From Actinomycetota bacterium (GTDB lineage Bacteria > Actinomycetota > Actinomycetes > Streptosporangiales > Streptosporangiaceae), in assembly GCA_027314515.1 (NCBI GenBank), contig DAHVAR010000055.1, positions 1 to 64,000 on the forward strand: 64,000 nucleotides of DNA, written 5' to 3'. The notes below the pieces were generated by a model. That model did not search any database, was not told where the DNA came from, and saw nothing but the letters and a program-made list of their open reading frames with translations. Each line of letters starts with the position of its first letter. Within the stretch, counting starts at the first letter, position 1. Positions 1-16,555 of this stretch are shown here, one piece after another. The position numbers and the translations under genes are program-made.

Positions 1-2
1 CC

Positions 3-2039
3 GCCACTCACGCCGACGAGCTCCTGCTGGCTGGGCTCGGCCGGGCCGCCCGGCTGTTCCCGGCGCTGGAGACCGAGTTGCGTGAGGCGGCACCGGTCGA
101 GGTCACCATGGACACCCCTGGCGCGTTCACATTTCTGCGCCAGACGGCCCCGCTGCTGTCCGGCGCCGGATTCGGGGTGCTGCTGCCGGGATGGGCCCGC
201 CGATCCCGGCTCGGTGTCAAATTGACGACCAGGCACACCCCGAACTCCAGCTCGGCCTCGGGCCCCGCGGGCTTCGGCATGAACGACCTCGTCGAGTTCC
301 GCTGGGATCTCGCGGTCGGCGATGACGTGCTCGACGCCGACGAACTCGAGCGGCTGGCCGCCCTGAAGGTCCCGCTGGTGCGGCTGCGCGGGCAGTGGGT
401 GGAACTCGACGACGCGCACCTGAAAGCGGCGCTGCGCTTCATGGAACGCCAGCGCTCCGGCACGATGAGCGCCGGTGAGGCCCTGCTCGCCACGGTGCGC
501 GGCGATGAGGACGAACTCCCGCTGGTAGAGGTGGACGCCGATGGCTGGCTCGGAGATCTGCTCTCCGGGGAGTCCGACCGGCGGCTCGCGCCGGTCGGTG
601 CGCCGCCGTCCTTCACCGGGACACTTCGCCCGTACCAGGAACGCGGCCTCGCCTGGCTGTCGTTCCTGGGGAGCCTGCGGCTGGGTGGGATCCTGGCCGA
701 CGACATGGGCCTGGGCAAGACCGTCCAGGTGCTCGCCCTGCTCGCGCACGAAGGGTCGGGCCCGGCGCTGCTGATCTGCCCCATGTCGCTGGTGGGCAAC
801 TGGCAGCGCGAGGCGGAGCGGTTCACGCCGGAGTTGTCGGTGCACGTTCACCACGGATCGCAGCGGCTGCGCGGTGAGGACCTCGCGGCGCAGCTTGGCG
901 GCACGGACCTGGTGATCACGACATACGGCGTCGCTCTGCGCGATGCCGAGCAACTGGCAGGGCTGACCTGGTCCCGGGTGATCTGCGACGAGGCGCAGTA
1001 CATCAAGAACCATGCCACGCGCGCGGCCCGCGCGGTCAGTTCCCTGCCCGCGCTCTCCAGGCTGGCACTGACCGGCACGCCCGTCGAGAACAGGCTGGCC
1101 GATCTGTGGTCGCTCATGGAATTCGTCAGCCCCGGGCTGCTCGGGACGGCCGAGAAGTTCCGCCGCACCTACGCCATCCCCGTCGAGCGAGGTGGCGACG
1201 AAGTTGCAGCGGCGGCGCTCAAGCGCACCACCGGCCCGTTCATTCTGCGCAGGCTCAAGACCGACAAAACGATCATCTCCGATCTTCCCGAGAAGCTGGA
1301 AATGAAGGTCTGGTGCAACCTGACCGCCGAGCAGGCGTCCCTGTACCAGGCGACGGTGACCGACATGCTGTCCCGTATCGAAGGCGCCCCGGACGAGGTA
1401 TCCCGCCGTGGCCTGGTGCTGGCCACGATGACCAGGCTCAAGCAGGTCTGCAACCACCCAGCGCACCTGCTGGGCGACGGTTCACGGCTGCCGGGGCGCT
1501 CCGGCAAGCTCGCCAGGCTGGAAGAGGTCTGCGACGAGATCGTCGCGGCGGGGGAGAAGGCGCTGTGCTTCTCCCAGTACGCGGAGTTCGCCGGGCTGCT
1601 CGCGCCCCACCTGACCGCGCGGCTCGGCTGCCCTGTGCTCTTCCTGCACGGCGGGACCACCAAGAAGCGAAGGGACGCGATGGTGAGCAGGTTCGCGGAA
1701 CTGGACGGGCCAGCCGTCTTCCTGCTCTCGCTGAAGGCGGGTGGCACGGGGCTGAACCTGACAGCCGCGAATCACGTCATCCACTTCGACCGCTGGTGGA
1801 ACCCCGCGGTCGAAAACCAGGCGACCGACCGGGCGTTCCGTATCGGCCAGCGCAAGGACGTCCAGGTGCGCACCTTCGTGTGCGTGGGCACGCTGGAGGA
1901 GCGGATCGATTCCATGATCGAGGTGAAGAAGGCGCTCGCCGAGCGGATCGTGGGCACCGGTGAGTCCTGGCTGGCGGACCTGTCGGTGGAGCAACTGCGT
2001 TCGGTCATCGAACTTGCCCCCGAGGCGGTTTCCCCATGA
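3..2039 (+). CDS. SNF2-family DEAD/DEAH-like helicase (5' end missing)
   Basis: C-terminal 678 residues of a Swi2/Snf2 ATPase. The frame is open from the left edge, so the protein starts outside the window; a TTG at 78 is only an internal candidate. Seen: motif I DDMGLGKT near codon 235, a DEAQ box near codon 330, LTGTPVENR after it, and in the second RecA lobe GGTGLNL, HFDRWWNPAVE and ATDRAFRIGQ. These are hallmark SNF2 motifs for ATP-driven translocation on double-stranded DNA. Actinobacterial members are usually about 1000 aa with an N-terminal SNF2-associated region, mostly missing here. The stop overlaps the next start (ATGA), so it is co-translated with a SWIM zinc-finger protein, a common pairing. 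The substrate is unknown. Confidence 0.95.
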   Translation, partial: ATHADELLLAGLGRAARLFPALETELREAAPVEVTMDTPGAFTFLRQTAPLLSGAGFGVLLPGWARRSRLGVKLTTRHTPNSSSASGPAGFGMNDLVEFRWDLAVGDDVLDADELERLAALKVPLVRLRGQWVELDDAHLKAALRFMERQRSGTMSAGEALLATVRGDEDELPLVEVDADGWLGDLLSGESDRRLAPVGAPPSFTGTLRPYQERGLAWLSFLGSLRLGGILADDMGLGKTVQVLALLAHEGSGPALLICPMSLVGNWQREAERFTPELSVHVHHGSQRLRGEDLAAQLGGTDLVITTYGVALRDAEQLAGLTWSRVICDEAQYIKNHATRAARAVSSLPALSRLALTGTPVENRLADLWSLMEFVSPGLLGTAEKFRRTYAIPVERGGDEVAAAALKRTTGPFILRRLKTDKTIISDLPEKLEMKVWCNLTAEQASLYQATVTDMLSRIEGAPDEVSRRGLVLATMTRLKQVCNHPAHLLGDGSRLPGRSGKLARLEEVCDEIVAAGEKALCFSQYAEFAGLLAPHLTARLGCPVLFLHGGTTKKRRDAMVSRFAELDGPAVFLLSLKAGGTGLNLTAANHVIHFDRWWNPAVENQATDRAFRIGQRKDVQVRTFVCVGTLEERIDSMIEVKKALAERIVGTGESWLADLSVEQLRSVIELAPEAVSP

Positions 2040-2914
2040 GCCCGTACTGGCCGCCACCTTCGCGGCCGCGCCGGGTCGAAGGCGGGCTGAAGGCACGGAG
2101 CAGTCGTGGCGCGATCGGCGAGCAGTGGTGGTCGAAGCGGTTCCTCGCGGTGCTGGAGTCCTTCGGCATGAGCAGCCGGCTCGCCCGGGGCCGCAATTAC
2201 GCCCGCGCGGGCCAGGTCCTGGGGTTCGACCTGGCTCCGGGTAAGGTCACCGCTCGGGTCCAGGGTTCCCGCGCGGCGCCGTACCGGGTCGTCATCGAGA
2301 TCGACCGGCTCACGGCCGGACAGTGGGAGCGGGTCGAGGCGGCACTCGCCGCGCAGGCGCTGTTCCGTGCGAAATTGCTGGCGGGCGAGATGCCGGCCGA
2401 GATCGAGGCGGTCTTCGCCGAATGCGGCACGCCGCTGTTCCCTGGCGCGGCTTCAGACCTGCGAATGTCCTGCTCCTGCCCTGACTGGGGAATGCCCTGC
2501 AAGCACCTCGCGGCTGTGTGCTACCTGCTCGCGGAGGCGTTCGACACCGATCCGTTCCGGATGCTGGCCTGGCGTGGGCGCGGGCGGGAGGAGTTGCTCG
2601 CCAGCCTGCGGGCGCTGTCCGGGGGTGGTGAGATTGCGGCCGGTGACGTCGCCGTGATCGAGGTCTGCGACCGCCCGCTGGCCGACTGCGTGGATGACTT
2701 CTGGGCACCGGGACTGCCGGCCGCACGCCTGCGGAGCCTGCCGGTCGCACCAGCGGCGCCGCCCGACCTGCTGTTGCGGGCGTTCCCGCCGCCGGACGTG
2801 CTGATCTCGGGGAAAGGTCTCGCGACAGTGCTCGGCCCCCTCTACGAACGCCTGCCGGCGGATCCGGCCGAGACAGCGGGCCCGGCCGAGACAGCGGACC
2901 ATGATCGTGACTGA
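2036..2914 (+). CDS. SWIM zinc-finger protein
   Basis: 292 aa. The SWIM signature CxCx(n)CxH is seen as CSCPDWGMPCKH at about residues 145-156; it binds zinc and is thought to contact DNA or protein. Its ATG overlaps the SNF2 stop by 4 nt, so the two form one transcriptional unit. SWIM proteins often accompany SNF2 ATPases in actinobacteria, and a joint role in chromatin or DNA repair is inferred, not shown. The last codons hold two copies of an 18-nt repeat (2865-2900) giving PAETAG/PAETAD. The gene converges with the next one, with a 20-nt gap. Confidence 0.9.
   Translation: MSPYWPPPSRPRRVEGGLKARSSRGAIGEQWWSKRFLAVLESFGMSSRLARGRNYARAGQVLGFDLAPGKVTARVQGSRAAPYRVVIEIDRLTAGQWERVEAALAAQALFRAKLLAGEMPAEIEAVFAECGTPLFPGAASDLRMSCSCPDWGMPCKHLAAVCYLLAEAFDTDPFRMLAWRGRGREELLASLRALSGGGEIAAGDVAVIEVCDRPLADCVDDFWAPGLPAARLRSLPVAPAAPPDLLLRAFPPPDVLISGKGLATVLGPLYERLPADPAETAGPAETADHDRD
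2865..2900 (+). repeat. 18-nt tandem repeat x2 in SWIM gene 3' end
   Basis: Two adjacent copies of cggccgagacagcggRcc differ at one base. They are in frame and duplicate six residues (PAETAG-like) just before the stop. Confidence 0.85.
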
Positions 2915-2934
2915 TTGGGTGGTGTGGTTCCCGA

Positions 2935-4770
2935 TCATGGAACCTGAGTCCGCGCCGGCGCGGACTCATCGATCAGGGCGAGCAGTTCGGCGATCTGATG
3001 ACGTGGCATGTCGATCAGCCGGGTTGGCCACCATCGGCGCTGGCCAGTCTTGCTGTCGATGATCGCGCGGGCCGCGTTCTTGGTGATCACCTGGCCACGC
3101 TCGCTGGCCAGGGCGATGATCGCCTCCCGCCAGGAGTTCATGACGTTCCCGTGCGCGTGCTCGAGCACAGCACACCGCAGGCGGGCCGCCGGGGTGGCGG
3201 GCTGGGCGGCGGTGGTCGCTTCCACAACGGCGTAAGCCGCCCCGGCGAAGCTCCGGTGAAAGCGGAGATGGTACTTGCCGGCCAGCAGGTCCGCCAGAGC
3301 GCTCTGAGCGGGCGCGGTCGCCGCATCCGGGTGGCTGTTCGCGATCAGCGCGACGACTGCGGGAGCATTCACCGCGAGCAGGCTCCGGGCCAGCCACGGC
3401 CCCGGGTCGGCGGAAAGGTCGATCACCACCGCGCCGGTCCGTGACCATGACGAGGGCAGCCCCGCGGTCAGCAGCGTGTGCAGATGCGCGTGGCCAGGAT
3501 TGCCCGCGTGCTGCTGGCCGGGGTCGGTGTGTTGCTGGCCGGCGCGGTCCTGGCCCGTACCGGACCGGTCCCGGGCCTGGTGGTCGTGATGCTGGTTCTC
3601 GCGGTCCCGGCCCTGCGCCTGGTCCGGGCGGGACCGCCGCTGGCCGGTGCGGTCCGCGATCTGCCAGCCCTCGGCCACGATGCCCGCCACGCCGCCCGGC
3701 ATCCGGGCCGCGAACTCCAGCACCGCGCGCTGGACGTCATCGGGTGCGACCTGCGCGCTGGCTTCCACCGACTGCGGGCCACGCGTGTACACGCGGGCGG
3801 GCGACGGCGTGCCCTGCCGGAACTGCTTCCAGGTCCGCGATGTCGGCCGGCAGACGTACAGGTCGCTGCTGCTGCCGATCGCCTGCGCCCCGGAGTACGT
3901 GCTGAACGAGGGGATGATCTGCTCGAAGGCCAGGCCCAGGCCGCTGGTCAGGGCCTGCTGCACTTTCCAGGCGAGGCCCGGATGCCGTTCGCCCGCGCCG
4001 TAGCAGACCAGCAGATTCCCGAACTCCCGGTTGCGCAGCGCGGCCAGGCCACTGGCGGCGAACAGGGCGATGCCTTCCGGTGTATAGGGAGGGTCGGTGA
4101 AGACGATGTCGGCCCAGCCGAGGATGTCCCGGGGGACCCCGAAGCGGAAGTCCGCGAAGCTGCATCTGACGTTCAGATCCAGCGCCCGTGCCCGGCCGTC
4201 GATGTATGCGAGCAGGTCTTCGTCGATGTCGGCGACGTGGGCGGTCAGCGCCGGATTGACAAGGCAGGCAGCGAGGGCGGTGAGGTCGTGATCGCCGACA
4301 CAGAGCAGCCGGCTGAACTCATAGGTCTCGTTGAGCCACCGGGCGCGGCGCAGGGCGGTGGCGGGCGTGACCGTCACATGGTCCAGCCGTTCCTTGGGAG
4401 CTGGGGCCTGCGCGAGCAATCCGGCGATCACCGCTTCCGCGTCGGCGGGCGGGTGCGGCGGGGTTGTCACCAGTGCGAGATAGGCGGGAACGACGTGCCG
4501 GCGCAGCGAGTACTTCCCATCGCCGGGCTCGAGGTCGGTGGCGGCCGCCGCCAGGACTTCTTCGACGGTGCGGCGGGACAGGCCGGTGGCCTGGATGAGC
4601 CCGGCCAGCGAGTGGGCGCCCCCGATGAGCAGTTCGATCACGCGCTGCAGGCTGCGTTGGTAAGGGCCGAAGCTCGCCATCAGATCGGCCACGGCCTGTG
4701 GGCCGGTGCCGGGGTGTGGACCGGTGCCGGGGTGTGGGCCGGTGCCGGCCGGGGGATTCAGCTCAGCCAT
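2935..4770 (-). CDS. BpsA-like (N4-bis(aminopropyl)spermidine synthase family) protein with novel C-terminal domain
   Basis: 611 aa. Layout: a GTGPHP-repeat head (about 7-24), a winged-helix-like segment (about 35-95), then an aminopropyltransferase-like Rossmann core with GDHDLTALA (159-167), DIDEDLLAYI (181-190) and TDPPYT (225-230). This pattern matches the BpsA/DUF43 family, which makes branched polyamines from spermidine in thermophilic archaea. After residue about 350 comes a His/Asp/Gln/Arg-rich linker and a roughly 190-residue C-terminal part I do not recognise. Its start overlaps the upstream hydrolase by 13 nt, so they are co-transcribed. Family assignment is fairly sure. The substrate is not: the DPPY motif could also suit a methyltransferase. 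Confidence 0.75.
   Translation of the reverse strand: MAELNPPAGTGPHPGTGPHPGTGPQAVADLMASFGPYQRSLQRVIELLIGGAHSLAGLIQATGLSRRTVEEVLAAAATDLEPGDGKYSLRRHVVPAYLALVTTPPHPPADAEAVIAGLLAQAPAPKERLDHVTVTPATALRRARWLNETYEFSRLLCVGDHDLTALAACLVNPALTAHVADIDEDLLAYIDGRARALDLNVRCSFADFRFGVPRDILGWADIVFTDPPYTPEGIALFAASGLAALRNREFGNLLVCYGAGERHPGLAWKVQQALTSGLGLAFEQIIPSFSTYSGAQAIGSSSDLYVCRPTSRTWKQFRQGTPSPARVYTRGPQSVEASAQVAPDDVQRAVLEFAARMPGGVAGIVAEGWQIADRTGQRRSRPDQAQGRDRENQHHDHQARDRSGTGQDRAGQQHTDPGQQHAGNPGHAHLHTLLTAGLPSSWSRTGAVVIDLSADPGPWLARSLLAVNAPAVVALIANSHPDAATAPAQSALADLLAGKYHLRFHRSFAGAAYAVVEATTAAQPATPAARLRCAVLEHAHGNVMNSWREAIIALASERGQVITKNAARAIIDSKTGQRRWWPTRLIDMPRHQIAELLALIDESAPARTQVP
4695..4748 (-). repeat. 18-nt tandem repeat x3 at the 5' end of the bpsA-like gene
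   Basis: Three copies of ggtgtgggccggtgccgg (plus-strand reading; small variations) lie at 4695-4712, 4713-4730 and 4731-4748. They encode GTGPHP hexapeptides directly after the first residues of the protein. Confidence 0.9.
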
Positions 4771-5594
4771 TCGGCGAGCAATCGGTTCAGGTGGTCGGGC
4801 GCGTCCAGCGGAATCCAGTGGCTCGCGTCCGCGATCTCCTCATAGCGCCACGGTCCTTCGACGAAAGCGGCCGATTGCTCCATCCTTCCGCCGGCCAGGT
4901 AATGGTCGTTTGTGGACCAGATGCCGAGCGTTGGCGCCTTTACCGGGGGCAGTGCCGCCGCTGTCGGCGACGGCGGCCGCCGCGGTGCCCGCGGGGCCAG
5001 GTTGGCGCGATACCAGTTGAGCGAGGCGGTGAGGGCGCCCGGCCGGGAAAGGTCGGCCAGGTACTGCTGCTGGTCGCCGTCACCGCGGCTGAGCTCGCGC
5101 AGCAGTGCCCAGTCGCCCAGGGCCAGGTGTGCCTCCGCCGCTCCCTCGAACTGGAAGTAGAGCTGATACCAGGCCATTTCGCGCTGGCGGATGGTGGCGG
5201 GGACCTGTGGGTGCGGGACCGAAAGGACCACCAGCCGCCGCACCCGCTGCGGGTTCGTCATGGCGGTCAGCCACGCGACTGCGGCTCCCCAGTCATGACC
5301 CACCAGGTGCGCGCTCTCGACTCCGAGCGCGTCGAGAATGCCGGTGACATCGCCCACCACGTTTGCGATGTGGTAGGCGGCCACCTCGGCTGGGCGTTCC
5401 GACCGGCCCATTCCCCGCAGGTCGGGGGTGATCACGCGGAACCCGTGCGCAGTGAGGAACGGGACCTGGTGGCGCCACAGACGCGCCGAGTCGGGCCAGC
5501 CATGCAGCAGGATGACCGGGTCACCGGCGCCATGGTCCTCGACGTACATGCCGAGGCCGTTGACTTCGATCAGCCGTCCGGGGTTTTCGTTCAC
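4758..5594 (-). CDS. Alpha/beta hydrolase, epoxide-hydrolase-like
   Basis: 278 aa from a GTG start at 5594. This start was chosen because GGAGG lies about 12 nt upstream and because the open frame further upstream lies under other genes. Seen: oxyanion motif HGWPD (31-35), nucleophile elbow GHDWG with Asp101, and a late His in DASHWIPLD. An Asp nucleophile with HGWP is typical of epoxide hydrolases and haloalkane dehalogenases, so it probably opens an epoxide through a covalent ester. No signal peptide; cytosolic. Its 3' end overlaps the BpsA-like start by 13 nt, which suggests coupled translation. The natural substrate cannot be read from sequence. Confidence 0.88.
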   Translation of the reverse strand: MNENPGRLIEVNGLGMYVEDHGAGDPVILLHGWPDSARLWRHQVPFLTAHGFRVITPDLRGMGRSERPAEVAAYHIANVVGDVTGILDALGVESAHLVGHDWGAAVAWLTAMTNPQRVRRLVVLSVPHPQVPATIRQREMAWYQLYFQFEGAAEAHLALGDWALLRELSRGDGDQQQYLADLSRPGALTASLNWYRANLAPRAPRRPPSPTAAALPPVKAPTLGIWSTNDHYLAGGRMEQSAAFVEGPWRYEEIADASHWIPLDAPDHLNRLLAEWLS

Positions 5595-5654
5595 CTGAGC
5601 CTGAGCCTCCGCCTCTTTCCTAGCAGACGCTAGCGCGGACCGTAGGCTGGCGCC

Positions 5655-6122
5655 GTGACGACCGAACCGGGCGCAGGATTGGCCCCACTCAGCCGGGCGC
5701 GCGGCGTCGCGGCCATGCTCGCAGCGGACACGGCCTCGGCCGGGGCGGGCATCACTGTCGAGGTCACCGGGCCCGGGCAGGCCCGCGCCCAGATGACAGT
5801 CACCGGGAACATGATCAACGGCCATGGCACCTGTCACGGCGGCTACCTGTTCCTGCTGGCCGATACGGCGTTCGCCTGCGCATGCAATACCCATCAGTAC
5901 ATGACGTTCGCGGCCGCCGCCAGCATCGTCTTCACCGCGCCAGTGCGGGTGGGGGAGACCCTGACCGCCGTGGCGGTGGAGCGGAGCCGCTATGGCAGGA
6001 ACGGAGTCTACGACGTGACGGTCATCAGGGACACCGATGAGGTGGTCGCCGAATTCCGGGGCCAGAGCCGGATGACGAGTGTCCCACTGCCGGGCGAAGG
6101 CGGGGATGGGGCACATGCCTAG
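5655..6122 (+). CDS. paaI: PaaI-type hotdog thioesterase
   Basis: 155 aa, GTG start. Hotdog fold with the PaaI signature HGTCHGGYLFLLAD (57-70); Asp70 is the expected catalytic acid in phenylacetic-acid-pathway thioesterases. Length fits the family. PaaI usually removes CoA from dead-end hydroxyphenylacetyl-CoA intermediates, but no other paa gene is here, so a general acyl-CoA housekeeping role is possible. It is divergent from the epoxide-hydrolase-like gene with a 60-nt gap, and its stop overlaps the likely start of the next gene by 8 nt. Confidence 0.85.
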   Translation: MTTEPGAGLAPLSRARGVAAMLAADTASAGAGITVEVTGPGQARAQMTVTGNMINGHGTCHGGYLFLLADTAFACACNTHQYMTFAAAASIVFTAPVRVGETLTAVAVERSRYGRNGVYDVTVIRDTDEVVAEFRGQSRMTSVPLPGEGGDGAHA

Positions 6123-6849
6123 CGCATGCCCGTTCACCATCGAACGGCCGGTCATGCGCCAGCGCTGGGAACGGCTGACCTTCCTGCACTGGGCCTTCGA
6201 CCCCGAGGCCATCCAGCGACTCCTGCCGGCGCACCTGCGGGTCGAGCCCTGCGAGGACAGAGCGTGGGTCGGCCTGGTGCCGTTCTTCATGCGGGTGGCG
6301 ACAGCGGGCGGTCGGCGGGTGCCCTGGGTGTCGAATTTCTGCGAGACAAACGTGCGCACGTACGTGCGCGACAGCGACGGCCGCAGTGGGATCTGGTTCT
6401 TCTCGCTGGACGCCGCGCGGGCCGGTGCCGTGGTCACGGCACGGACGACCTACGGGCTCCCGTACTTCTGGTCCCGGATGCGGATCACCGAGCGCGGCAG
6501 CCAGATGACTTACGAGTGCAGCCGTCGGTGGCCCGGACCGCTGCCGGTGACGAGTTTGGTACGGCTGAACGTGGGCGAGCCATTCCGGGATTCGGAGATC
6601 ACCGAACGCGACGACTTTCTCACCGCCCGGTGGATCTTGTTCAGCGTGTCGGGCAATCGCCGCCGGTTCGCGCGCGCGCGCCACGAACCCTGGCCGTTGC
6701 GCCGCGCCGAACTTCTGCTGGCCGACGATGGCCTGATCTTGGCAGCCGGCCTGCCCAAGCCCGAGGGTGCGCCACTTGTGCACTACTGCGATGGTGTCGA
6801 TGTCACCATCGGCCTGCCCGAGCAGCACCGGCCAGCACCGGTTCGCTGA
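6115..6849 (+). CDS. DUF2071 (YqjF-like) family protein
   Basis: 244 aa from ATG 6115, preceded by GGGGATGGGG. An in-frame upstream ATG at 6079 would lie deeper inside the thioesterase gene and is less likely. The sequence shows family traits: an N-terminal WERLTFLHW stretch, FFMRVA, VSNFCETNVRTYV, and a C-terminal HYCDGVDV. DUF2071 proteins have an acetoacetate-decarboxylase-like fold but no proven common reaction. Overlap with the PaaI-like gene points to one mRNA. No membrane segments. Confidence 0.85.
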   Translation: MPSACPFTIERPVMRQRWERLTFLHWAFDPEAIQRLLPAHLRVEPCEDRAWVGLVPFFMRVATAGGRRVPWVSNFCETNVRTYVRDSDGRSGIWFFSLDAARAGAVVTARTTYGLPYFWSRMRITERGSQMTYECSRRWPGPLPVTSLVRLNVGEPFRDSEITERDDFLTARWILFSVSGNRRRFARARHEPWPLRRAELLLADDGLILAAGLPKPEGAPLVHYCDGVDVTIGLPEQHRPAPVR

Positions 6850-6927
6850 CCTGCCGGGCATAGCGTGGCCCTGGCCGGGCGCCGGGGTGCTCACACCCCC
6901 TTGACACGGGGTAACCATGGTGGCAAG

Positions 6928-6971
6928 CTCTGCAGTACAGAGTAAATCGTAGAGAACTCTGCTACGCAGAG
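6928..6971. promoter_or_regulatory. Two palindromic operator-like sites, CTCTG-N5-CAGAG
   Basis: Two perfect inverted repeats with the same arms lie at 6928-6942 (centre cagta) and 6957-6971 (centre ctacg), 29 bp apart centre to centre. They are 39-82 bp upstream of the membrane protein start. A TTGACA at 6901-6906 may be a -35 box. The layout suggests binding of two dimers of the winged-helix regulator encoded by the second gene of the unit, giving autoregulation (inference). Confidence 0.65.
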
Positions 6972-7009
6972 GCTGTACGGGCGGAAGATCACAGTGTAGA
7001 GAGCAGGCC

Positions 7010-7681
7010 ATGACCGCTGACCCCGTGAATGACGCCGCCGATTGGAGCGCGCACCTGTCAGCGCTGCGGGCGCAGGTGCGGCGCGACCTGCGGGCCACCT
7101 CGCTGCCGCTGCTGATACTCGGGACGGCGACAACCATCGGGATGCTGCCGCAATTCGTGAACGCCCTGGTAGCTAGATCCTCACTACCGCTGGCTCCCGT
7201 CCCCCGAGGCGCGGCGAGAGCGGTGGCCATCACGGGCTTCGGCCCCTTCGTCGATCCCCGCATCGACGACTGGTTCGCTGGCCTGCTCATCACGGCGGCC
7301 TTCGCCGTGATGTGGTTGGTGTTCCGGCGGCGGGCACTGCGCGGTGGTGTCGGGCGGTCTTCCGGTTTCGGGGTGGCCGCTGTGGTGGGCGTCATCCTGT
7401 CCCTGTCGGTTGTCGTCATCGCCCTGCTGCTGACCGGGCCGTTCGTGGTCTTCGGCCTGGGTCTGCTGATCGCCGGCCTATGGCAGCGCAATCGCTTCCT
7501 GGTCATCTGGGCCGTGATCGTCGGCGTCATCGGCGTGTCCGAGGCGTTCTACGCGATCACCAACCGGCTGCCGGCCGGGCTCTGGGCGGGGTGGGTACAT
7601 CCCGCGATCTATGTGCTCCTTGGGGCGGCTACCGTCCTCGCCGGTGTGGTCGCACGCGTCCGGGAAGATCGTGCGCGATGA
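7010..7681 (+). CDS. Multi-pass membrane protein of unknown function
   Basis: 223 aa. Soluble N-terminus (about 30 residues), then hydrophobic segments near residues 33-53, 86-106, 117-140, 141-158, 163-182 and 192-212. I do not recognise a catalytic motif. Its stop overlaps the ATG of a winged-helix regulator (ATGA), a frequent actinobacterial pairing in which the regulator may control or sense its membrane partner. Two palindromic sites just upstream probably regulate the unit. Function is unknown. Confidence 0.85.
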   Translation: MTADPVNDAADWSAHLSALRAQVRRDLRATSLPLLILGTATTIGMLPQFVNALVARSSLPLAPVPRGAARAVAITGFGPFVDPRIDDWFAGLLITAAFAVMWLVFRRRALRGGVGRSSGFGVAAVVGVILSLSVVVIALLLTGPFVVFGLGLLIAGLWQRNRFLVIWAVIVGVIGVSEAFYAITNRLPAGLWAGWVHPAIYVLLGAATVLAGVVARVREDRAR

Positions 7682-8160
7682 GCGGCGCAGCCGGTGACCC
7701 CGAGGGCGGGGCAGGCGTGGACGATCCGGCGGACCGGCCGGCGGCGAATTCCGGCGCACGGCTCGATGGGATACCCCCGCCGCACCCGGCGCTGACCTTC
7801 GATGAGGTCGTACATCAGCGGACGAGGCTGGGCATACTCGCCGTCCTGGCAGAGGCCGGCCAGGCTGACTTCCCCTATCTCCGGCGGGTGCTGGGCCTGA
7901 CGGACGGGAACCTCGGCCGGCATCTGCAGATACTCGAAGAATCCCGGCTCATCATGACGAGCAAGGGGTATCACCGCCGACGGCCCCGGACCTGGGCGGA
8001 GATCACGCCCGAGGGGCGCCGGGCACTGCAGTCGGAGGTCACCCGGATGAAGGACCTGATCAAGCGTCTCGATGCGAGCCCGGAGTTAAGCGGCGGGCCG
8101 GGGCCGGGTGGCGGGCCGGGGCCGGGTGGCAGGCCGGGATTGACCAACCGGCCGCGGTGA
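7678..8160 (+). CDS. Winged-helix transcriptional regulator (ArsR/MarR-like, PF13601 type)
   Basis: 160 aa, ATG overlapping the membrane protein stop. An unstructured N-terminus (about 40 aa) leads into a winged helix: DEVVHQRTRLGILAVL, then LTDGNLGRHLQILEE as the recognition helix, then a wing with a basic RRRPRTW stretch and ITPEGRRAL. This matches the single-domain winged-helix family often next to membrane proteins. It likely binds the CTCTG-N5-CAGAG pair upstream. The tail is Gly/Pro-rich and built from an 18-nt tandem repeat (8092-8127). Confidence 0.9.
   Translation: MSGAAGDPEGGAGVDDPADRPAANSGARLDGIPPPHPALTFDEVVHQRTRLGILAVLAEAGQADFPYLRRVLGLTDGNLGRHLQILEESRLIMTSKGYHRRRPRTWAEITPEGRRALQSEVTRMKDLIKRLDASPELSGGPGPGGGPGPGGRPGLTNRPR
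8092..8133 (+). repeat. 18-nt tandem repeat in regulator tail
   Basis: Unit ggcgggccggggccgggt occurs at 8092-8109 and 8110-8127, followed by a partial copy. It is in frame and encodes GGPGPG-like hexapeptides. Confidence 0.85.
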
Positions 8161-8303
8161 CCCGGCCTCCGCTCTTGCCTACCGCCCGGGCTCCCAGGGA
8201 ACACTGGCGGGGGGATCTACGGGCGGAGCAGCCAGCGTGGTGACGCAACCGGGCGAGCAGGGCGATCCGATCCACCCCAGCCAGCTTTGGGCCGGGCGGG
8301 CCG

Positions 8304-8587
8304 GTCAGTTACCTGGATCTGAGCGGCCCGGTGGAAGGTCGGGTCGTCGGGCCGCGTCCACGGCCTGGGTGGGTCCTCCCTGAACTGGCTGGCGATCGCG
8401 CCCCTGCTGGCGACGCGCCGGCTGTTCGCCCCGGACCTGGCCGGCCACGGCCGCACGGGCCGTGCTGCCGGACGCCGGTCATGTGCCGCAACTTGAGCTT
8501 CCGGCGGAGACCGCGCGGATCATCACGACGTGGCTCGGGTCGGCGGGCAAGCCCGCCGCGGACGCGGCGCGGCGGCCCGGCGCGTAG
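8304..8587 (+). pseudogene. Alpha/beta hydrolase remnant (frameshifts and internal deletion)
   Basis: Hydrolase pieces appear in order but in three frames. YLDLSGPVEGR is near 8310 (frame of 8304). VHGLGGSSLNW with APDLAGHGR runs from 8356 in a second frame. VLPDAGHVPQLELP, the His-containing C-terminal motif, runs from 8462 to a TAG at 8585-8587 in a third frame. The middle of the enzyme, including the nucleophile elbow, is gone. It lies just before a WS/DGAT and a patatin, so it was probably a lipid esterase of the same island. Confidence 0.8.
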
Positions 8588-8605
8588 TGCAGCAGGTAAC
8601 CGGCT

Positions 8606-8618
8606 TGACGTAGCGTCA
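8606..8618. promoter_or_regulatory. Perfect dyad TGACG-TAG-CGTCA
   Basis: A 5-bp inverted repeat with a 3-nt centre, 36 bp upstream of the WS/DGAT start, overlapping a TTGACG that could be a -35 element. Possible operator; the regulator is unknown. Confidence 0.4.
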
Positions 8619-8653
8619 TCAGTAGCTGCCAGGCGCCGCGGGGGTGGTGAGCC

Positions 8654-10039
8654 ATGGAGTGGATGAGCACGCTCGACGCGGGCTTCTACTTCGTCGAGCA
8701 CGAGAACGTCCCCATGCACATCGGCTCGCTCGTGGTGCTCGAGGGGCCGGCCCCCGCCTACGAGGAACTGATCGACCTCTACGCCGCCAAGCTGCCCATG
8801 GTCCCGCGCTACCGGCAGGTGGTGCGGACGGTGCCGATGCAGGTGTTCCGGCCCTTCTGGGCCGACGATGAGCACTTCGAGATCCGCTACCACGTCCGGT
8901 ACGCCAGTGTGCCGGCGCCCGGTGGCCAGGCGGAAGTACGCGCGCTGGCTGCCCGTCTGCTGGCCCAGCGCCTGAACCGTGCCAGGCCGCTGTGGGAGGC
9001 GTGGCTGCTTGACGGGATCGCGGGGGACCGCTGGGGGTTGCTGTCGAAGGTGCACCACTGTGTGGTGGATGGGATCGCAGGGACGGACCTGCTGACCAAG
9101 GTATGCGACCTCAGCCCGGAGTTCGAGCGGCCAGTTCCGCAACCGTGGACTGCGAGGCCGGCGCCGTCGGCCGCCAGCCTCGTCTCCAGCGGCATCCTCG
9201 ACACCGCCACGTGGCGTTGGCGGCAGCTCGCCGGGGTCCCCGGCTTCGTGCGGCACCGCCTGGCCAGTCCGGCCGAGGCGTTGCGGTTCGGCTGGGGCCT
9301 GACGGCTGGCGCCCGCCGCCTGGCATCCCGCGCTCCCTGGTCCCTGAACGGGCCGATTGGCCCGGACCGCAACTGGGCCTGGACGACTGTGGACTTCGGC
9401 GATGTGAAGCGCATCCGCCGCGAGCACGGGGGCACCGTGAACGACGTGCTTCTCGCGGCGATCACCCGGGGCTTCCGGGATCTGCTCGCCGAGCGTGGGG
9501 AACTCACCCGCGGACTGGTGGTGCGTTCGCTCGTACCGGTCTCCGTCCGGGGGCAGGACGAGCATGCGGAGTTCACCAACCGGGTCTCGGCGGTGCTGGC
9601 TAACCTGCCGGTCGGGGAGCCGGGGCCAATGCGGCGGCTAACGCTGCTCCGCGAGCAGATGAGCGACATCAAACGCACCCATCAGGCGGTGGGCCCGGAG
9701 TTCCTGACGGAGATGCTCGGGTTCGTCGCGCCGACGGTGCTCGCCCTCGGCAGCCGTGCGGCGTTCGGCATGGGGCAACCACTGGTGCAGACGGTGACCA
9801 CCAATGTCCCCGGCCCGTCTTTCCCGCTTTACATCCTCGGCCACAAGATGGTCGAGTCCTACCCATATGTGCCGATCGGCGACAACGTCCACATCTCGAT
9901 CGCGATCTTTTCCTACCTTGGCTGCTTCTATTTCGGGATAACCTCGCAAAAGGGGGAAGCATCCGACGTAGAGGCACTGACCAGGGGGATCACCACCGGC
10001 GTCGCGGAACTCATCGACCTCGGCTCAGGAGCCGCGTAA
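8654..10039 (+). CDS. Wax ester synthase / diacylglycerol acyltransferase (WS/DGAT)
   Basis: 461 aa, normal for the family. The start is supported by the family N-terminus (STLDAGFYFVE) and a GGGGTGG upstream. The catalytic HHxxxDG is seen as HHCVVDG at 134-140, and the conserved NDVLL and NVPGP blocks are present. These enzymes transfer acyl-CoA to fatty alcohol or diacylglycerol, making wax esters or triacylglycerol stored in lipid bodies; they attach to membranes or droplets. Neighbours are a hydrolase remnant upstream and a patatin-like lipase downstream, suggesting storage-lipid turnover. Confidence 0.95.
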   Translation: MEWMSTLDAGFYFVEHENVPMHIGSLVVLEGPAPAYEELIDLYAAKLPMVPRYRQVVRTVPMQVFRPFWADDEHFEIRYHVRYASVPAPGGQAEVRALAARLLAQRLNRARPLWEAWLLDGIAGDRWGLLSKVHHCVVDGIAGTDLLTKVCDLSPEFERPVPQPWTARPAPSAASLVSSGILDTATWRWRQLAGVPGFVRHRLASPAEALRFGWGLTAGARRLASRAPWSLNGPIGPDRNWAWTTVDFGDVKRIRREHGGTVNDVLLAAITRGFRDLLAERGELTRGLVVRSLVPVSVRGQDEHAEFTNRVSAVLANLPVGEPGPMRRLTLLREQMSDIKRTHQAVGPEFLTEMLGFVAPTVLALGSRAAFGMGQPLVQTVTTNVPGPSFPLYILGHKMVESYPYVPIGDNVHISIAIFSYLGCFYFGITSQKGEASDVEALTRGITTGVAELIDLGSGAA

Positions 10040-10168
10040 GCGGTTGTTCGCTTTCAGCGATCTTCCGATTCGATGGCGAACGGGATAAATCAGTCATAAG
10101 ATCCCGTGAACAGCGATCTGCCGGGACCTCGGGGGCGGTGCCGGACGCCGGACCCTGGGAGGTGGACG

Positions 10169-11173
10169 TTGGATCAGGACAAGATGTCCGCCGGCCCGTT
10201 TCCGCGCACCGGGCTCGTCCTGGGTGCGGGGGGCGTGCTGGGTGCCGCGTGGATGACCGGTGCCCTGCCCGCCGTGCAGGAGCGGCTTCAGCGCACGCTC
10301 AACGACGTCGAGGTGATCGTCGGCACGAGCGCCGGGAGCGTGGTCGGCGCCGCGCTGCGCTGTGGGATCAGCGTGGCGGAGATGGTCGCGCACCAGCGTG
10401 GCACCGCCGGCGGGGCCATCGGGCAGATCAGCCTGGACGATGTCGCGGACGGCCCATGGCCGCCCGTCCCGCGGCCGTACCCGGGATCTCCCCGGCTGGC
10501 GCTCACCTCGTTCCTGTCCCCGCTGAGTATGCATCCGTGGGTGACTGCGAGCGCCTGGCTGCCGCGCGGGCGCGGCAATCACCGGGCACTTCACCAGCTG
10601 GTCGATGCGCTGCACGGGCAGGCACACGCACATCCGTCAGCACCCCACTGGGTGAGCCGGGGCGACACCTGGATCGTGGCGGTCGACTATGACTCGGGCC
10701 GCCGGGTGATCTTTGGCCAGGACGGGTCACCCCCGGCCACCCTGGCCGACGCGGTGGTCGCCTCGTGCTCGATCCCGGGGTGGTACGCGCCGGCCTTGAT
10801 CCACGGCCGGCGCTACGTCGACGGCGGAGTCCGCTCTCCCCACTCGCTCGCCATCCTCGCCGATGCCGGCCTCGAGGAGGTATGGGTCCTCGCCCCGATG
10901 GCGAGCCTGGAGATTGGCTGGACATTCAGGCCGCAGGAACGGCTGGAGCGCCGCGTCCGTGGCCTGATCACCGCAGCGCTGCTACGCGAGGTCCGGGCGC
11001 TGCGGGCACGCGGAGTCCGGGTGAACGTCCTCACACCGGGGCCGGAAGATCTGGCGGTCATGGGTGCGAATCTGATGGACCCGCGCCGGCGCCTCACGGT
11101 GTTTGAAACGTCGCTGCTCACCTCGGCCGCTGCGCTCGCCCGCGCTGATTCAGCCCTGTCGGCCGCCGCCTGA
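10169..11173 (+). CDS. Patatin-like phospholipase
   Basis: 334 aa. TTG 10169 is chosen because GGGAGG lies 6 nt upstream; GTG 10106 and ATG 10184 are in-frame alternatives. Seen: oxyanion loop GAGGVLG (19-25), nucleophile GTSAG with Ser54, and the DGG motif (YVDGGVRSP, near residue 217) giving the Ser-Asp dyad of patatins. No signal peptide or membrane segment, so probably a cytosolic or droplet-associated acyl hydrolase. It follows the WS/DGAT on the same strand and may release fatty acids from lipids that enzyme makes. Confidence 0.92.
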   Translation: MDQDKMSAGPFPRTGLVLGAGGVLGAAWMTGALPAVQERLQRTLNDVEVIVGTSAGSVVGAALRCGISVAEMVAHQRGTAGGAIGQISLDDVADGPWPPVPRPYPGSPRLALTSFLSPLSMHPWVTASAWLPRGRGNHRALHQLVDALHGQAHAHPSAPHWVSRGDTWIVAVDYDSGRRVIFGQDGSPPATLADAVVASCSIPGWYAPALIHGRRYVDGGVRSPHSLAILADAGLEEVWVLAPMASLEIGWTFRPQERLERRVRGLITAALLREVRALRARGVRVNVLTPGPEDLAVMGANLMDPRRRLTVFETSLLTSAAALARADSALSAAA

Positions 11174-11341
11174 ACGCGCCGGGCGGCGGCCCTGCGAGCG
11201 CGGTCGCGACTGGAAGGCCCAGCGCGTGGCTCCCTTATCCTCACTGCGGTAGGTGTGCCATTTTCCCGATTGGCGGGGGTTACCGTTGTCATGGGTGTCG
11301 TCGGGCGCTTCGTATAGTCAGGGTGCTGGGTAAGGTTCAAT

Positions 11342-12175
11342 ATGCCGCGGTATCGCTTTTCCTGGGATAACCTCCCGCCAGCTTTGCTTACCCGGCTGTG
11401 CCGGGATCTGGACCTCGATCCACCTCCCGCTCCCGCGCTGCTGGCCAGGTACGGTCCCAGGCCACGTTCCGAATTCGTCCATGACGCCTGGCGCACGCTG
11501 GTTGATACGTGGCTGGAAGCCGACGGGCGATCTCGCGAGCGGATCGTGGCGCAGTTCTGGAAGCACGGGCTCGGTAGTGGTGGCTCACCACCGCTGACCG
11601 TGGCAGAGCAGGTGGACTACCTCGACTCGTGCCGGGAGTCAGCGTCCGCCCGCGAGATCGTGGCAGCCGCGTTCCGGGCGCTCGGCGAGCCTTGGCTGGT
11701 CGGGACCCCCGCGGGGGAGGATGCTCCGGAATCGTCCGATCAGCCGCCGAGCCTCGACGAGTGGCTCGACGATGTGATGGGGGAGATCCTCGGCCCCGCC
11801 GAGGTCCGGCGCGACCGCGATGGGGACATCCCCGTCCGGGCGGGGAGCACCGTGTGCTACGTCCGCTGCGTCGACGATCCCCCATCCGTGCGGCTGTTCT
11901 GCCCCATGGTGGTCGGGATCCCGTCCTCAGCGGCGCTGCTGGAAGCAATCAATGAGATCAACATGAACATCACCGTCGGCCGTGTCTTCCATACCCCGGC
12001 CGATGAAGTGATCTTCGCCATCGAACTGTACGGGGAGCAACTGACCGCGGAGATCATCAGGGAGAGCCTCGCTGCCGCGACCACCGTCGCCGACCACTTC
12101 GACCACCAGCTTCAGTCCCGGTTCGGTGGCAAGACGATGTTCCCCGAGACCAGCGACGATTCGGTGATGCTGTGA
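11342..12175 (+). CDS. YbjN / type III secretion chaperone-like fold protein
   Basis: 277 aa. A helical N-terminal part (1-130) precedes a C-terminal YbjN-like domain with DGDIPVRAGSTVCYVR, then VRLFCPMVV, NEINMNITVGRVF and LQSRFGGKTMF. This fold resembles secretion chaperones, but in actinobacteria the role is unknown. A TATAGT at 11313-11318 may be its -10 box. It ends in a GTGA overlap with an HtrA-like protease, so the two are co-translated. A chaperone or adaptor for that protease is a reasonable guess only. Confidence 0.8.
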   Translation: MPRYRFSWDNLPPALLTRLCRDLDLDPPPAPALLARYGPRPRSEFVHDAWRTLVDTWLEADGRSRERIVAQFWKHGLGSGGSPPLTVAEQVDYLDSCRESASAREIVAAAFRALGEPWLVGTPAGEDAPESSDQPPSLDEWLDDVMGEILGPAEVRRDRDGDIPVRAGSTVCYVRCVDDPPSVRLFCPMVVGIPSSAALLEAINEINMNITVGRVFHTPADEVIFAIELYGEQLTAEIIRESLAAATTVADHFDHQLQSRFGGKTMFPETSDDSVML

Positions 12176-13104
12176 CAGGCCAGTACATCACCGGCCTGCA
12201 GCAGTTCAGCCAGGACATGATCGAGGTCGTCGCACGGTGCCGTCCCGCGGTGGCGACCATCCATCATCACCCTGCCGAGGGGGAGTCCAGCGGGTCGGGA
12301 TTCCTGCTCGACGGGGCTGGCCACGTGGTGACGAACTACCACGTGGTCGAGGAGAGCGGGCCTGACCTGCGACTCCAGTTCGCCACGGGTCTCGCCGCGC
12401 AGGCGGAGGTGGTCGGCGCGGACCCGCTGACCGACCTCGCCGTCGTCCAGGCGCACGGCCCGCTGCCCGAACCGCTGGGGGTGCGCGCCCAGCCGGCGGT
12501 GCTCGGAGAGATCTGCCTGGCCATGGGAAGCCCGTTCGGCGACTACACCGAATCGGTCAGCCTGGGCATCGTCTCCGGGCTGACGCGCACCATACCGACC
12601 TCCCGGGGCCGCCCGCTGGAGCGGGCCATCCAGACCGACGCCGCGATCAGCCCGGGCAACAGTGGCGGGCCCCTGGTGGACGTGGCGGGCATGGTGCTGG
12701 GCGTGAGCACCTGCGTGGACGTCCGGGGGGTGGGCATCGGCTTCGCGGTGCCGGGGGAAACCATCGACTGGGTGGTCCGGCAGATCCTGCGCCACGGCGA
12801 CGTGCAGCGGGGCGCGCTCGGGGTCGCTGTCGCCACCCGGGTCGAGAACGTGGAGGGCCAGTTCCGCCACGCTCCGGTGATCACCCGCGTCACCGCCGAC
12901 CTCGCGTGCGACCTGCGGCCCGGTGATGTCATCCTGGCGGTGGCCGGCCGGCCGGTCACCGACCGTGCCGACATCTATTACCTGCTGACCAGGGACATCA
13001 TCGGGACGCTGGTGGCGGTGGAGGTGCTGCGGGACGGTCAGCGGGTGATCCACGACGTGCCGGTCCGCAAGTATCTCCCGCCGGCGGCTGTCAATTCCCG
13101 CTGA
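12172..13104 (+). CDS. Trypsin-like serine protease (HtrA/DegP-like, S1C) with PDZ domain, no export signal
   Basis: 310 aa, GTG start overlapping the upstream stop. Catalytic triad seen as His57 (TNYHVV), Asp88 (DPLTDLAVV) and Ser164 (PGNSGGPL). Residues about 210-305 form a PDZ domain (GALGV, LRPGDVILAVAGRPV, ADIYYLLT). Unlike typical HtrA there is no signal peptide or membrane anchor, so it should act in the cytosol. It pairs with the YbjN-like gene upstream. The stop codon lies inside a hairpin that is also the first copy of a 20-nt repeat (13090-13109). Confidence 0.9.
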   Translation: MTGQYITGLQQFSQDMIEVVARCRPAVATIHHHPAEGESSGSGFLLDGAGHVVTNYHVVEESGPDLRLQFATGLAAQAEVVGADPLTDLAVVQAHGPLPEPLGVRAQPAVLGEICLAMGSPFGDYTESVSLGIVSGLTRTIPTSRGRPLERAIQTDAAISPGNSGGPLVDVAGMVLGVSTCVDVRGVGIGFAVPGETIDWVVRQILRHGDVQRGALGVAVATRVENVEGQFRHAPVITRVTADLACDLRPGDVILAVAGRPVTDRADIYYLLTRDIIGTLVAVEVLRDGQRVIHDVPVRKYLPPAAVNSR

Positions 13105-13109
13105 CAGCC
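13086..13109 (+). terminator. Hairpin over the protease stop codon
   Basis: GGCTGTCA / TGACAGCC form an 8-bp perfect stem with loop attcccgc. There is no T-run, as is usual in high-GC actinobacteria. It includes the TGA stop at 13102-13104. Confidence 0.5.
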
Positions 13110-13201
13110 GACATCACGTCCGGGGTGACGCCGGTGGCCAGGCCCGCTCCCGCCGGTGGCCGTCAATTCCCGCTGACAGCCGTCAATTCCCGCTGACAGC
13201 C
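13090..13201 (+). repeat. 20-nt repeat, three copies, at and after the protease 3' end
   Basis: The unit gtcaattcccgctgacagcc is identical at 13090-13109 (inside the gene, including its stop), 13162-13181 and 13182-13201. The last two are directly adjacent. The outer copies are both followed by gac, so the block looks like duplication of the gene end. Confidence 0.9.
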
Positions 13202-13205
13202 GACG

Positions 13206-13958
13206 TCAGGCGACCAGCCTGCGCAGCGCCGCCCTGGCCAGGCTCACCGCCGCCGGGCCCGGCGGGGCCGGCCGGCCTCCCTGCCGTTGTTCGGGAATCG
13301 CGCCCAGCCGGCGCAGGCACGACCAGGTGTCGCGGGCGGCCTCCAGCGCCTGCCCGTCATCCAGCGGCTGGCCGGTCCGGGTGTCCTTCCAGCCCAGCGC
13401 CGCCATCCCCCGGCGCAGATGCTCGTGGGCGACCTGGGTGTCCAGCGGGGTGGCGCTGGCGACGGCGAGCAGCAGCAGCAGCCCGGCGTCCCGCTCGGCC
13501 TCCGCCCGGGCCTCCGGAAGGCGGCTGGCGATATGCCACCACAACCGGCCAGGATCGCGGCTCAGGCGGTCACCGAGGGCGGTCCGGAACAGCATCCCCC
13601 GGTGGGGGCGCACCAGGGCCATCCGGCGGGCCGATTGGCGAAGTTCCAGCACGGGGGGGGTCAGGTGTTCCTTCGCGCCCTCGCCCAACCAGCCCTGGTC
13701 CCAGTTCAGCGTCTCGAACGCGTCGCGCACGATGGCGGGCGGCAGGTAGCCGGCGCGGGTGAGCCGGATGCCGGCGGGGCCGATCCTGTGCAGGAGCCAG
13801 GTGTAGGGGCTGATCGCCGCCACGGCGGCCGCGGCGTCCACCATCACCGGCCGGTGCAGTGAGGCTCGGGCGAGCAGGTCCACGGCATACCGGGAGCCAG
13901 AACCCCACAGCCGTTCCTGCAACTCCTCCAAGTCGCCGGGCATCACCTCAGTCGGCAT
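13206..13958 (-). CDS. Protein like the C-terminal half of pRiA4b ORF-3 / IS1096 TnpR-like proteins
   Basis: 250 aa. The order YTWLLHRIG, LTRAGYLPPAIV, LTPPVLELRQSARRMALVRPHRGML, LWWHIASRLP and LLLLLAVA resembles the region following the pRiA4b ORF-3 domain in many actinobacterial proteins. Here the ORF-3 domain itself is absent, so this is either a stand-alone version or what remains after loss of the N-terminus. There is no enzymatic motif and the function is unknown. It is convergent with the HtrA-like gene and followed upstream by a decayed region. Confidence 0.65.
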   Translation of the reverse strand: MPTEVMPGDLEELQERLWGSGSRYAVDLLARASLHRPVMVDAAAAVAAISPYTWLLHRIGPAGIRLTRAGYLPPAIVRDAFETLNWDQGWLGEGAKEHLTPPVLELRQSARRMALVRPHRGMLFRTALGDRLSRDPGRLWWHIASRLPEARAEAERDAGLLLLLAVASATPLDTQVAHEHLRRGMAALGWKDTRTGQPLDDGQALEAARDTWSCLRRLGAIPEQRQGGRPAPPGPAAVSLARAALRRLVA

Positions 13959-14199
13959 GACCGGTCGCTTCCGGCAGTGGGTGTGGTGGGACGCCCGAGG
14001 AAAGCCGGTGCCAGCCGGAGGCGTCCGTGACCACCTCGGATCCGTCTCTGCGGGCCTGTGGTTGCATGAGCGTTAGAGATACTCCCTGGTCAGCCATGGT
14101 GTCAATGTGCAGGTTCGGCACCTTATCAACGTTTTGTCGTGGAATCCCTGCCGGAGGGGAGTTTTCCCTGCGCTGTCTCCTCGCCAGGCCCGGGCACCG
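13959..14199. other. Non-coding, decayed stretch
   Basis: No recognisable gene, RNA or repeat between the orphan protein and the methyltransferase remnant. The part from 14040 to 14160 is less GC-rich than the neighbours. The longest frames here have no family features. Confidence 0.4.
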
Positions 14200-14796: not shown

Positions 14797-14894
14797 GCGG
14801 TGGCCGTTTCCCTTGGCTGGACCGGGTGCGCCCGGTAAAGGCCGGGCTGGGGGATTGCGGCGGATCTGCCGTGAACATGCCGGCCAATCCCGCG

Positions 14895-15824: not shown

Positions 15825-15859
15825 CCACGCCGTGATCTCTCAAGGAAGTCCCGCCGTGC

Positions 15860-15886
15860 TGTCACAGGGAATGCCGGTCTGTCGTC
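15860..15886 (+). promoter_or_regulatory. ECF41-type promoter, TGTCACA-N16-CGTC
   Basis: TGTCACA at 15860-15866 and CGTC at 15883-15886 with exactly 16 nt between them equal the published ECF41 consensus as I remember it. It points toward the PPOX gene, 46 nt before its ATG, in the gap between it and the sigma gene. Confidence 0.75.
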
Positions 15887-15932
15887 GAAGGGTGGAAGAA
15901 CGGCCCAGCACGAGAAAGCGAGTGAGGGTGCC

Positions 15933-16343: not shown

Positions 16344-16430
16344 CTTGCGCCGGAGCCTGCTCGGCTGCTCGGCGGCCCGCTGACTCGGCTGGGGCCGCTG
16401 GATGCCGGAATTCTCACCGTCAAACGATGT

Positions 16431-16552: not shown

Positions 16553-16555
16553 TCG

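Follow-up and report, generated by a model that had tools for sequence, protein, structure and literature searches.

The window analysed here—a 64,000-nucleotide stretch of a Streptosporangiaceae actinobacterial assembly (contig DAHVAR010000055.1)—carries near its left end a gene for P0001, a protein that the original prediction took for a BpsA-like branched-polyamine synthase, fused to a domain that could not be placed and coupled to the adjoining gene of a hydrolase, P0002, the pair perhaps modifying an amine product not known from this bacterial group. P0001 and its closest relatives are called the GDHD type below, after a motif that reads GDDD in BpsA; Tk marks the residue numbering of T. 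kodakarensis BpsA (Tk-BpsA). The relevant features are:

2935..4770, reverse strand: P0001, BpsA-family protein of the GDHD type, 611 amino acids (open reading frame [ORF] and PF01861)
4456..4701, reverse strand: N-terminal helical, winged-helix-like head, residues 24-105 (model helices 24-33, 35-50, 55-62 and 66-75)
3760..4455, reverse strand: BpsA-like Rossmann core, residues 106-337 (PF01861 at 121-297; VIA-align to 6j27_C)
4378..4380, reverse strand: His131, whose counterpart Tk Gln127 is Gln in 18 of 18 aligned GDDD sequences (alignment)
4285..4296, reverse strand: GDHD motif, residues 159-162, with His161 in place of Tk Asp159 (alignment)
4084..4095, reverse strand: DPPY motif, residues 226-229 (alignment)
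3523..3603, reverse strand: His/Gln-rich disordered linker, residues 390-416 (predicted local distance difference test score [pLDDT] below 50)
2956..3501, reverse strand: C-terminal conserved domain, residues 424-605, a half-Rossmann-like sheet plus four helices (model and alignment)
4758..5594, reverse strand: P0002, alpha/beta hydrolase of the epoxide hydrolase/haloalkane dehalogenase type, 278 amino acids (PF00561)

The reading frame, the motifs GDHD (159-162), DIDE (181-184) and TDPPY (225-229) and, if the first ATG is the start, an overlap with P0002 of exactly 13 nt agree with the earlier description. In the alignment, several relatives start only around residue 24, and P0001 has a GTG at codon 27 (4690-4692) from which the overlap would be gone; it thus depends on the choice of start. 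An AlphaFold model of the whole protein, built with 43 aligned sequences, reached a pLDDT of 88.2 and a predicted template modelling score of 0.87, and its predicted helices between residues 24 and 75 fit the winged-helix-like head that had been suggested. The His-rich linker is present as well, but is disordered and lacks conservation: the stretch 338-423 measures 86 residues in P0001 versus a mean of 35 in the 43 sequences (alignment A2).

The core is BpsA-like by sequence and fold. PF01861 (BpsA_C), the sole Pfam domain detected in P0001, matched residues 121-297 (E 5.6e-22; 78.6 bits against a gathering cut-off of 27), and NCBIfam profiles gave no match. By sequence, the only related solved structures were those of BpsA and 2qm3 (E 1.1e-11 to 5.4e-8), which in VIA-align were also the nearest folds of the core (Z 23-26), Thermus BpsA 6j27_C aligning at Z 26.1 with a root-mean-square deviation (rmsd) of 2.9 over 215 residues. 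The RNA methyltransferases METTL5 (Z 19.7, rmsd 2.7, 188 residues aligned) and PH1948 (Z 17.8) ranked next; they have in common with P0001 the (N/D)PP(aromatic) motif known from METTL5, but are 12–18% identical to it and are without its head and tail domains, and the likeness probably holds for BpsA itself. By its Pfam and structure matches, then, the core does not group with DNA or RNA methyltransferases. With BpsA (EC 2.5.1.128; T. kodakarensis 5xnc, T. thermophilus 6j27; PF01861) the GDHD proteins share the core fold, the Pfam family, the order of head and core, and the counterparts of Asp160, Asp225 and Tyr290; unlike BpsA, they have GDHD for GDDD, His for Gln127, an added C-terminal domain and no link to speD, the gene of the S-adenosylmethionine (SAM) decarboxylase that makes decarboxylated SAM (dcSAM).

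In a tree built under LG+G4 from 180 columns of 47 core sequences, 29 GDHD sequences formed one clade with an ultrafast bootstrap (UFBoot) of 100, 11 actinobacterial GDDD sequences a second one (96), and both together were again supported at 100. The GDHD proteins thus constitute a widespread actinobacterial clade. Relatives of P0001 were encoded in 47 of 100 genomes surveyed, the window's included, and fell into two bit-score groups: a long form with a core score of at least 179 bits (38 genomes) and a short form with at most 75 bits (12 genomes), three genomes holding both. For 23 of the 38 long-form genomes a separate C-terminal match was listed, and two matched along the whole length. Relatives turned up in 455 stretches of named genomes—at odds with the rarity first assumed—and motifs were read in the best 80, which come from Saccharopolyspora, Lentzea, Actinokineospora, Kutzneria, Frankia, Jiangella, Actinomadura, Kribbella, Nocardia and others, and include one locus (L083) labelled as a gammaproteobacterial metagenome-assembled genome (MAG).

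The named genomes were scanned with the patterns C[VLI]GDHDLT or DPPYTP[ED]G, and motif conservation in these 80 loci is therefore partly due to selection, from which the sets found by similarity (the 100-genome survey, the aligned relatives and the further long- and short-form sequences) are free. GDHD, with its His161, occurred in all 118 GDHD loci read by script (80 named and 38 relatives; 112 distinct, six records being in both sets), and His131 in all of them except L163, which has Gln. The motif was read in 37 of the 38 long-form survey genomes (G011 was left out), and GDDD in 15 of 20 GDDD genomes, the other five (G002, G005, G007, G298 and G322) being assigned by similarity. All 36 long-form rows showed GDHD and all five short-form rows GDDD, and three more long-form and ten more short-form sequences agreed. 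Core columns that separate the groups—at least 27 of 29 GDHD sequences versus a different residue in at least 15 of 18 GDDD sequences—numbered three, namely Tk 127 (Q to H; H in 28/29, Q in 18/18), Tk 159 (D to H) and Tk 210 (P to G; G in 29/29, P in 15/18); since column 159 doubles as the grouping label, only 127 and 210 are independent of the grouping.

Around these exchanges, G159, D160, D162, D226, P227, P228 and Y229 were unchanged in 43 of 43 sequences. BpsA Asp160 is retained as D162, the GDDD motif with its Asp159 being absent, and D226, E261 and Y292 of P0001 correspond to Asp225, Glu259 and Tyr290 of the BpsA polyamine site (Tyr316 lies beyond the aligned stretch); across the clade the Glu259 counterpart is loose, with E in 16 and D in 7 of 29 sequences. 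Glu336 is invariant (43/43), and the acidic cluster of Tk-BpsA that carries the aminopropyl group (Tk 339-345) lies beyond the aligned part. The retention of these seven residues speaks against the idea that catalysis was lost altogether and that the protein is a regulator, either a pseudo-enzyme with a winged-helix-like head or a metal binder via H131, H161, D160 and D162—a view that the two (nearly) invariant histidines beside acidic residues and the disordered His-rich linker of the window's copy would suit, and that we regard as very improbable. DPPY, also present in 43 of 43 sequences, matches the (D/N)PP(Y/F/W) motif of nucleic-acid N-methyltransferases, but as it likewise occurs in the 11 actinobacterial GDDD sequences, it does not discriminate.

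In Tk-BpsA, Asp159 and Asp160 place the aminopropyl group of dcSAM, and Asp159 is reported as essential (PMC12979288); Gln127 presumably contacts the donor. That the donor-site Asp159 is His in every one of the GDHD loci read speaks against the branched-polyamine synthase of the original prediction. A precedent for such an exchange exists in plants, where replacing Asp103 of the donor motif of spermidine synthase by Ile (D103I) abolished aminopropyl transfer and conferred methyl transfer from SAM, the Q79T exchange (Gln79 to Thr) increased this methyl transfer, and the enzyme so derived methylates putrescine (PMC3725402). Plant putrescine N-methyltransferase, which derives from spermidine synthase, likewise lost the Asp and Gln gripping the dcSAM amine (PMC3725402). 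The plant case differs in belonging to another aminopropyltransferase family and in having Ile/Thr replacements where the GDHD clade has His/His, and the comparison is one that we draw ourselves; if the donor did change in the GDHD clade, this would be an independent parallel, in a second family of aminopropyltransferases, to the change that turned spermidine synthase into putrescine methyltransferase.

A change from dcSAM to SAM could also have left the BpsA geometry in place, the histidines holding the carboxylate that dcSAM does not have, and the enzyme would then move the 3-amino-3-carboxypropyl group from SAM onto RNA or a small molecule. Tsr3, Dph2 and nicotianamine synthase transfer this group. 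Chemically, this is the simplest reading of a propyl-transfer geometry combined with a change of donor, and the retained D160, D162 and D226 agree with it, but the plant precedent yielded methyl transfer (PMC3725402), and we deem such a reaction unlikely.

If the GDHD clade required dcSAM, its genomes would be expected to hold speD, which we detected by PF02675. Among the relatives, all 12 short-form (GDDD) genomes have it, 11 of them on the same contig at a distance of 0.4–0.9 kb, and so do seven of eight further GDDD genomes in the phylum sample (0.3–0.9 kb away in five), which gives 19 of 20 with speD and 16 with the two genes adjacent. The corresponding figures for GDHD (long-form) genomes are 6 of 38 relatives and neither of the two genomes in the phylum sample, so that 34 of 40 are without it; three of the six that have speD, the window's genome included, also carry a short-form copy, and in the window's own assembly speD adjoins this GDDD copy. 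The fetched flanks of the GDHD gene, which reach up to 7–9 kb where the contig allows, some stretches being short, contained speD in none of the 118 loci (80 named, 38 of relatives). With speD missing from most GDHD genomes surveyed, the clade as a whole cannot depend on dcSAM, barring a maker that PF02675 does not see. Conversely, a PF02675 protein can alternatively be an ornithine or arginine decarboxylase (PMC10407285).

Named carriers present a different picture, with speD in 26 of 49 GDHD genomes; among those searched, it was found in Lentzea, Saccharopolyspora, Kutzneria and Actinokineospora and was absent in Frankia, Jiangella, Actinomadura and Kribbella. A spermidine synthase gene adjoins speD in the three loci scanned with Pfam (L206, L202 and L165), which provides another explanation for speD in named carriers; in other loci this adjacency is suggested by ORF lengths alone. 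A dcSAM supply, which a polyamine synthase would need, is not a property of the clade as a whole. A GDHD protein that has remained an aminopropyltransferase and yields a branched polyamine, His standing for Asp in its donor site, would be in keeping with the BpsA fold, with most of the pocket and with the speD genes of these 26 named and of 6 of 40 other carriers; their absence from the remaining 34 carriers and from all fetched flanks, together with the reported need for Asp159 in Tk-BpsA (PMC12979288), makes this quite unlikely. In one Lentzea locus (L206, 1617-4055), genes for an ornithine/diaminopimelate/arginine decarboxylase-like protein, SpeD and spermidine synthase follow one another.

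The C-terminal part of P0001, which had defied placement, proved to be a conserved domain. The match extends to at least residue 571 in 79 of the 80 kept named loci, the ORF of the exception (L098) running off the contig end. Pfam yielded no family, PF00398 included, for window residues 424-611 at E up to 5. A model of these residues by themselves, for which 42 relatives were used, was confident (pLDDT 93.9). Its first 25 Foldseek rows were all KsgA, Dim1, Erm or mtTFB structures (chain B of the yeast complexes we take to be mtTFB), with a best E of 1.5e-3 and none below 0.001. In VIA-align, domain residues 1-101 superposed on the latter half of the Rossmann sheet of KsgA (3ftd: Z 6.4, rmsd 2.8, 92 aligned), for example, while separate rows matched residues 101-188 to the helical tails of the KsgA group (8ap1: Z 5.8, rmsd 5.4, 75 aligned). 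The domain weakly resembles the second Rossmann half and helical tail of the KsgA/Dim1/Erm rRNA dimethyladenosine transferases (RrnaAD, PF00398), yet differs from them in that a sequence match and the SAM-binding first half are absent and the scores weak. When hhalign was applied to sub-regions picked after the fold match was known—a post hoc choice—0 of 60 column shuffles scored as high, as was the case for a control of KsgA against the GDHD core (0/60; probability 7). Sequence comparison did not confirm the likeness, and we treat the modelled domain as a lead towards RNA and not as a sign of KsgA-family membership.

Alternatively, the protein may be a SAM methyltransferase acting on a small amine or another metabolite instead of a nucleic acid. 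Small-molecule methyltransferases dominate Foldseek rows 10-50, and the substrate of the plant precedent is putrescine (PMC3725402); the two additional domains and the lack of a biosynthetic gene neighbourhood conserved across lineages point the other way, leaving this as a rather unlikely option.

The reading that we prefer, with a probability of roughly 0.42, is that of a donor-switched, SAM-using clade that transfers methyl groups, a macromolecular substrate being its weaker part. The GDHD clade split from BpsA-type aminopropyltransferases and would have changed its donor from dcSAM to SAM: with His161 for Asp159 and His131 for Gln127, the bare amine of dcSAM would no longer be gripped, and the two histidines could hold the SAM carboxylate instead. 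The retained D160, D162, D226-PPY and Y292 may place an amino nitrogen for methylation in the manner of DPPY/NPPY N-methyltransferases. More tentatively, the winged-helix-like head and the KsgA-tail-like domain might serve to hold a macromolecule, probably RNA or DNA, at the active site; P0002 would have no role in the general function of the family. Put more broadly, it is conceivable, if somewhat doubtful, that we are dealing with a new class of SAM-dependent transferases, spread through actinobacteria, derived from the ping-pong aminopropyltransferase BpsA by a two-histidine donor switch, equipped with an RNA-binding-like tail and moving methyl or 3-amino-3-carboxypropyl groups onto an actinobacterial RNA or another macromolecule.

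Several observations weigh against this donor-switch reading. The acidic and aromatic residues of the BpsA pocket are mostly retained, one GDHD sequence (L163) has Gln at position 131, and dcSAM is possibly available in the 26 named genomes with speD. The net charge averages -6.4 for the core, a mildly acidic value, and at +2.9 the C-terminal helices are just mildly basic. The likeness to KsgA is weak in Foldseek (best E 1.5e-3, TM-score about 0.3) and in VIA-align, where KsgA-type Z scores of 5–7 compare with up to 7.9 for unrelated small folds and the rmsd over the entire domain is about 10; and when the C-terminal alignment was compared by hhalign with 20 KsgA/Erm-like proteins, the probability was 0.3, and 10 of 60 column shuffles scored as high. 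Many actinobacterial genomes hold a GDHD gene, whose product a BpsA_C Pfam match alone would label a branched-polyamine synthase; such a transfer of annotation is contradicted by the switch at two residues, by the fused domain and by a supply of dcSAM that is often missing. Judged by titles and the beginnings of abstracts, in a search that left out most subscription journals, we found no study of the GDHD clade.

The genomic setting of the GDHD gene is lineage-specific. In 25 of 36 long-form relatives' loci the stretch encodes a 1500-residue protein, presumably glutamate synthase, mostly adjoining the GDHD gene, and the genes on the other side of those loci appear to be lgt-, dsbA- and trp-like. 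Named loci of Lentzea, Saccharopolyspora and similar ones have the GDHD gene flanked by OpuAC-type ATP-binding cassette transporter genes on one side and, on the other, by a GGDEF/EAL gene with a malic-enzyme gene after it, and in Frankia it stands beside histidinol dehydrogenase and response regulator genes; no constant partner emerged across lineages from the named and relatives' loci. Such stable, lineage-specific positions argue for a chromosomal gene that is mainly inherited vertically. A mobile gene was rejected: the plasmid collection contained one record, which at 11.85 Mb is chromosome-sized, and among phages the one record found, 4.3 kb long and unannotated, matched a third of the protein at 28% identity (E 4e-15). 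A role in defence was likewise dismissed, since PADLOC models matched P0001 nowhere at E up to 1.

The proposed coupling to the hydrolase did not hold up across genomes. P0002 matched PF00561 (Abhydrolase_1; E 2.1e-35, 123 bits) and reads GHDWGA, with the Asp nucleophile in GHDWG, an elbow that marks the epoxide hydrolase/haloalkane dehalogenase type. A P0002-like gene stood directly beside the GDHD gene in the window, in its near-identical twin (L033 = L072, the same contig) and in Kutzneria viridogrisea (L090); beyond window and twin, this amounts to one of 79 other named loci and 0 of 37 relatives, that is, 1 of 111 distinct loci, and a conserved two-gene unit was rejected on these grounds. 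(L083, L090 and L124 were absent from the ORF-based neighbour table, and L090 was read by hand.) In L090 (6210-8626), the epoxide-hydrolase-like gene lies directly upstream, is the best P0002 match of its genome and is 39% identical to P0002 by tblastn (44% in a second comparison). Within the compared set, the nearest relative of the L090 protein is that of L073 (65%) and not the window's, and the upstream gene of L073 encodes a carboxylesterase, of the alpha/beta-hydrolase superfamily but of a different family from P0002. Including this one, seven of 28 same-strand upstream genes counted were scanned; the others encode an ion channel, a TetR protein, a pyridoxal phosphate enzyme, two flavin-dependent (FAD) monooxygenases and a PucR-type regulator. 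Nine Lentzea loci have a P0002 match (31–42% identical) 4–6 kb away, non-adjacent. The pairing is thus not a family trait; its recurrence in Kutzneria is interesting but a single case. Of the two outcomes that were to refute the original prediction, an unconserved gene pair was observed, whereas a core that groups with nucleic-acid methyltransferases was not.

Along the window the nearest relative changes sharply. Window positions 2-16801 are 98–99% identical to contig C129 of a genome of a different genus (G054; the L072 record, MAG clean1968), whereas positions 16477-34098, the extent compared, are 92–96% identical to a genome of the window's own genus (G006), C129 reaching just 70–83% where it matches. 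About 325 bp (16,477-16,801) are shared where the nearest relative changes, and the long form was found in none of eight other genomes of the window's genus (72–98% complete). The contig would be either a metagenome chimera or the product of a very recent transfer of at least 16.8 kb between genera; for this reason, little weight should rest on the window's genome (G000) holding both a GDHD and a GDDD copy.

Actinobacterial GDDD copies, such as that on contig C193 of G000 (L001/L067), form the sister clade of the GDHD proteins and have the DPPYT motif in common with them, but retain GDDD and Gln and mostly lie beside speD; three of five tails inspected are CxxC zinc-ribbon-like. On C193 (about 48–51 kb), the GDDD BpsA gene is divergent from speD, and a GNAT acetyltransferase gene follows. 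The same GNAT cluster comes after the GDDD gene in L069 and L070, and in L071 BpsA and GNAT form one ORF; to judge from gene content, these loci may represent a branched-polyamine plus acetylation cassette in actinobacteria. The genome of L163 (G043) additionally carries a GDDD copy and speD, and an Allokutzneria with a GDHD gene has a second speD beside a GDDD-like gene (L209, 1344-2928) whose product is 47% identical to that of L070. The GDDD copy of the window's genome (L067, 7552-9255) matched the PADLOC model mad2 over residues 346-441 (E 4e-6), a match that probably stems from the common methyltransferase fold. Finally, window positions 78-2914 hold a gene pair for an SNF2 helicase (DUF3670) and a SWIM zinc-finger protein with a 4-nt overlap, of which a second stretch, 73% identical, lies on contig C1 of G000.

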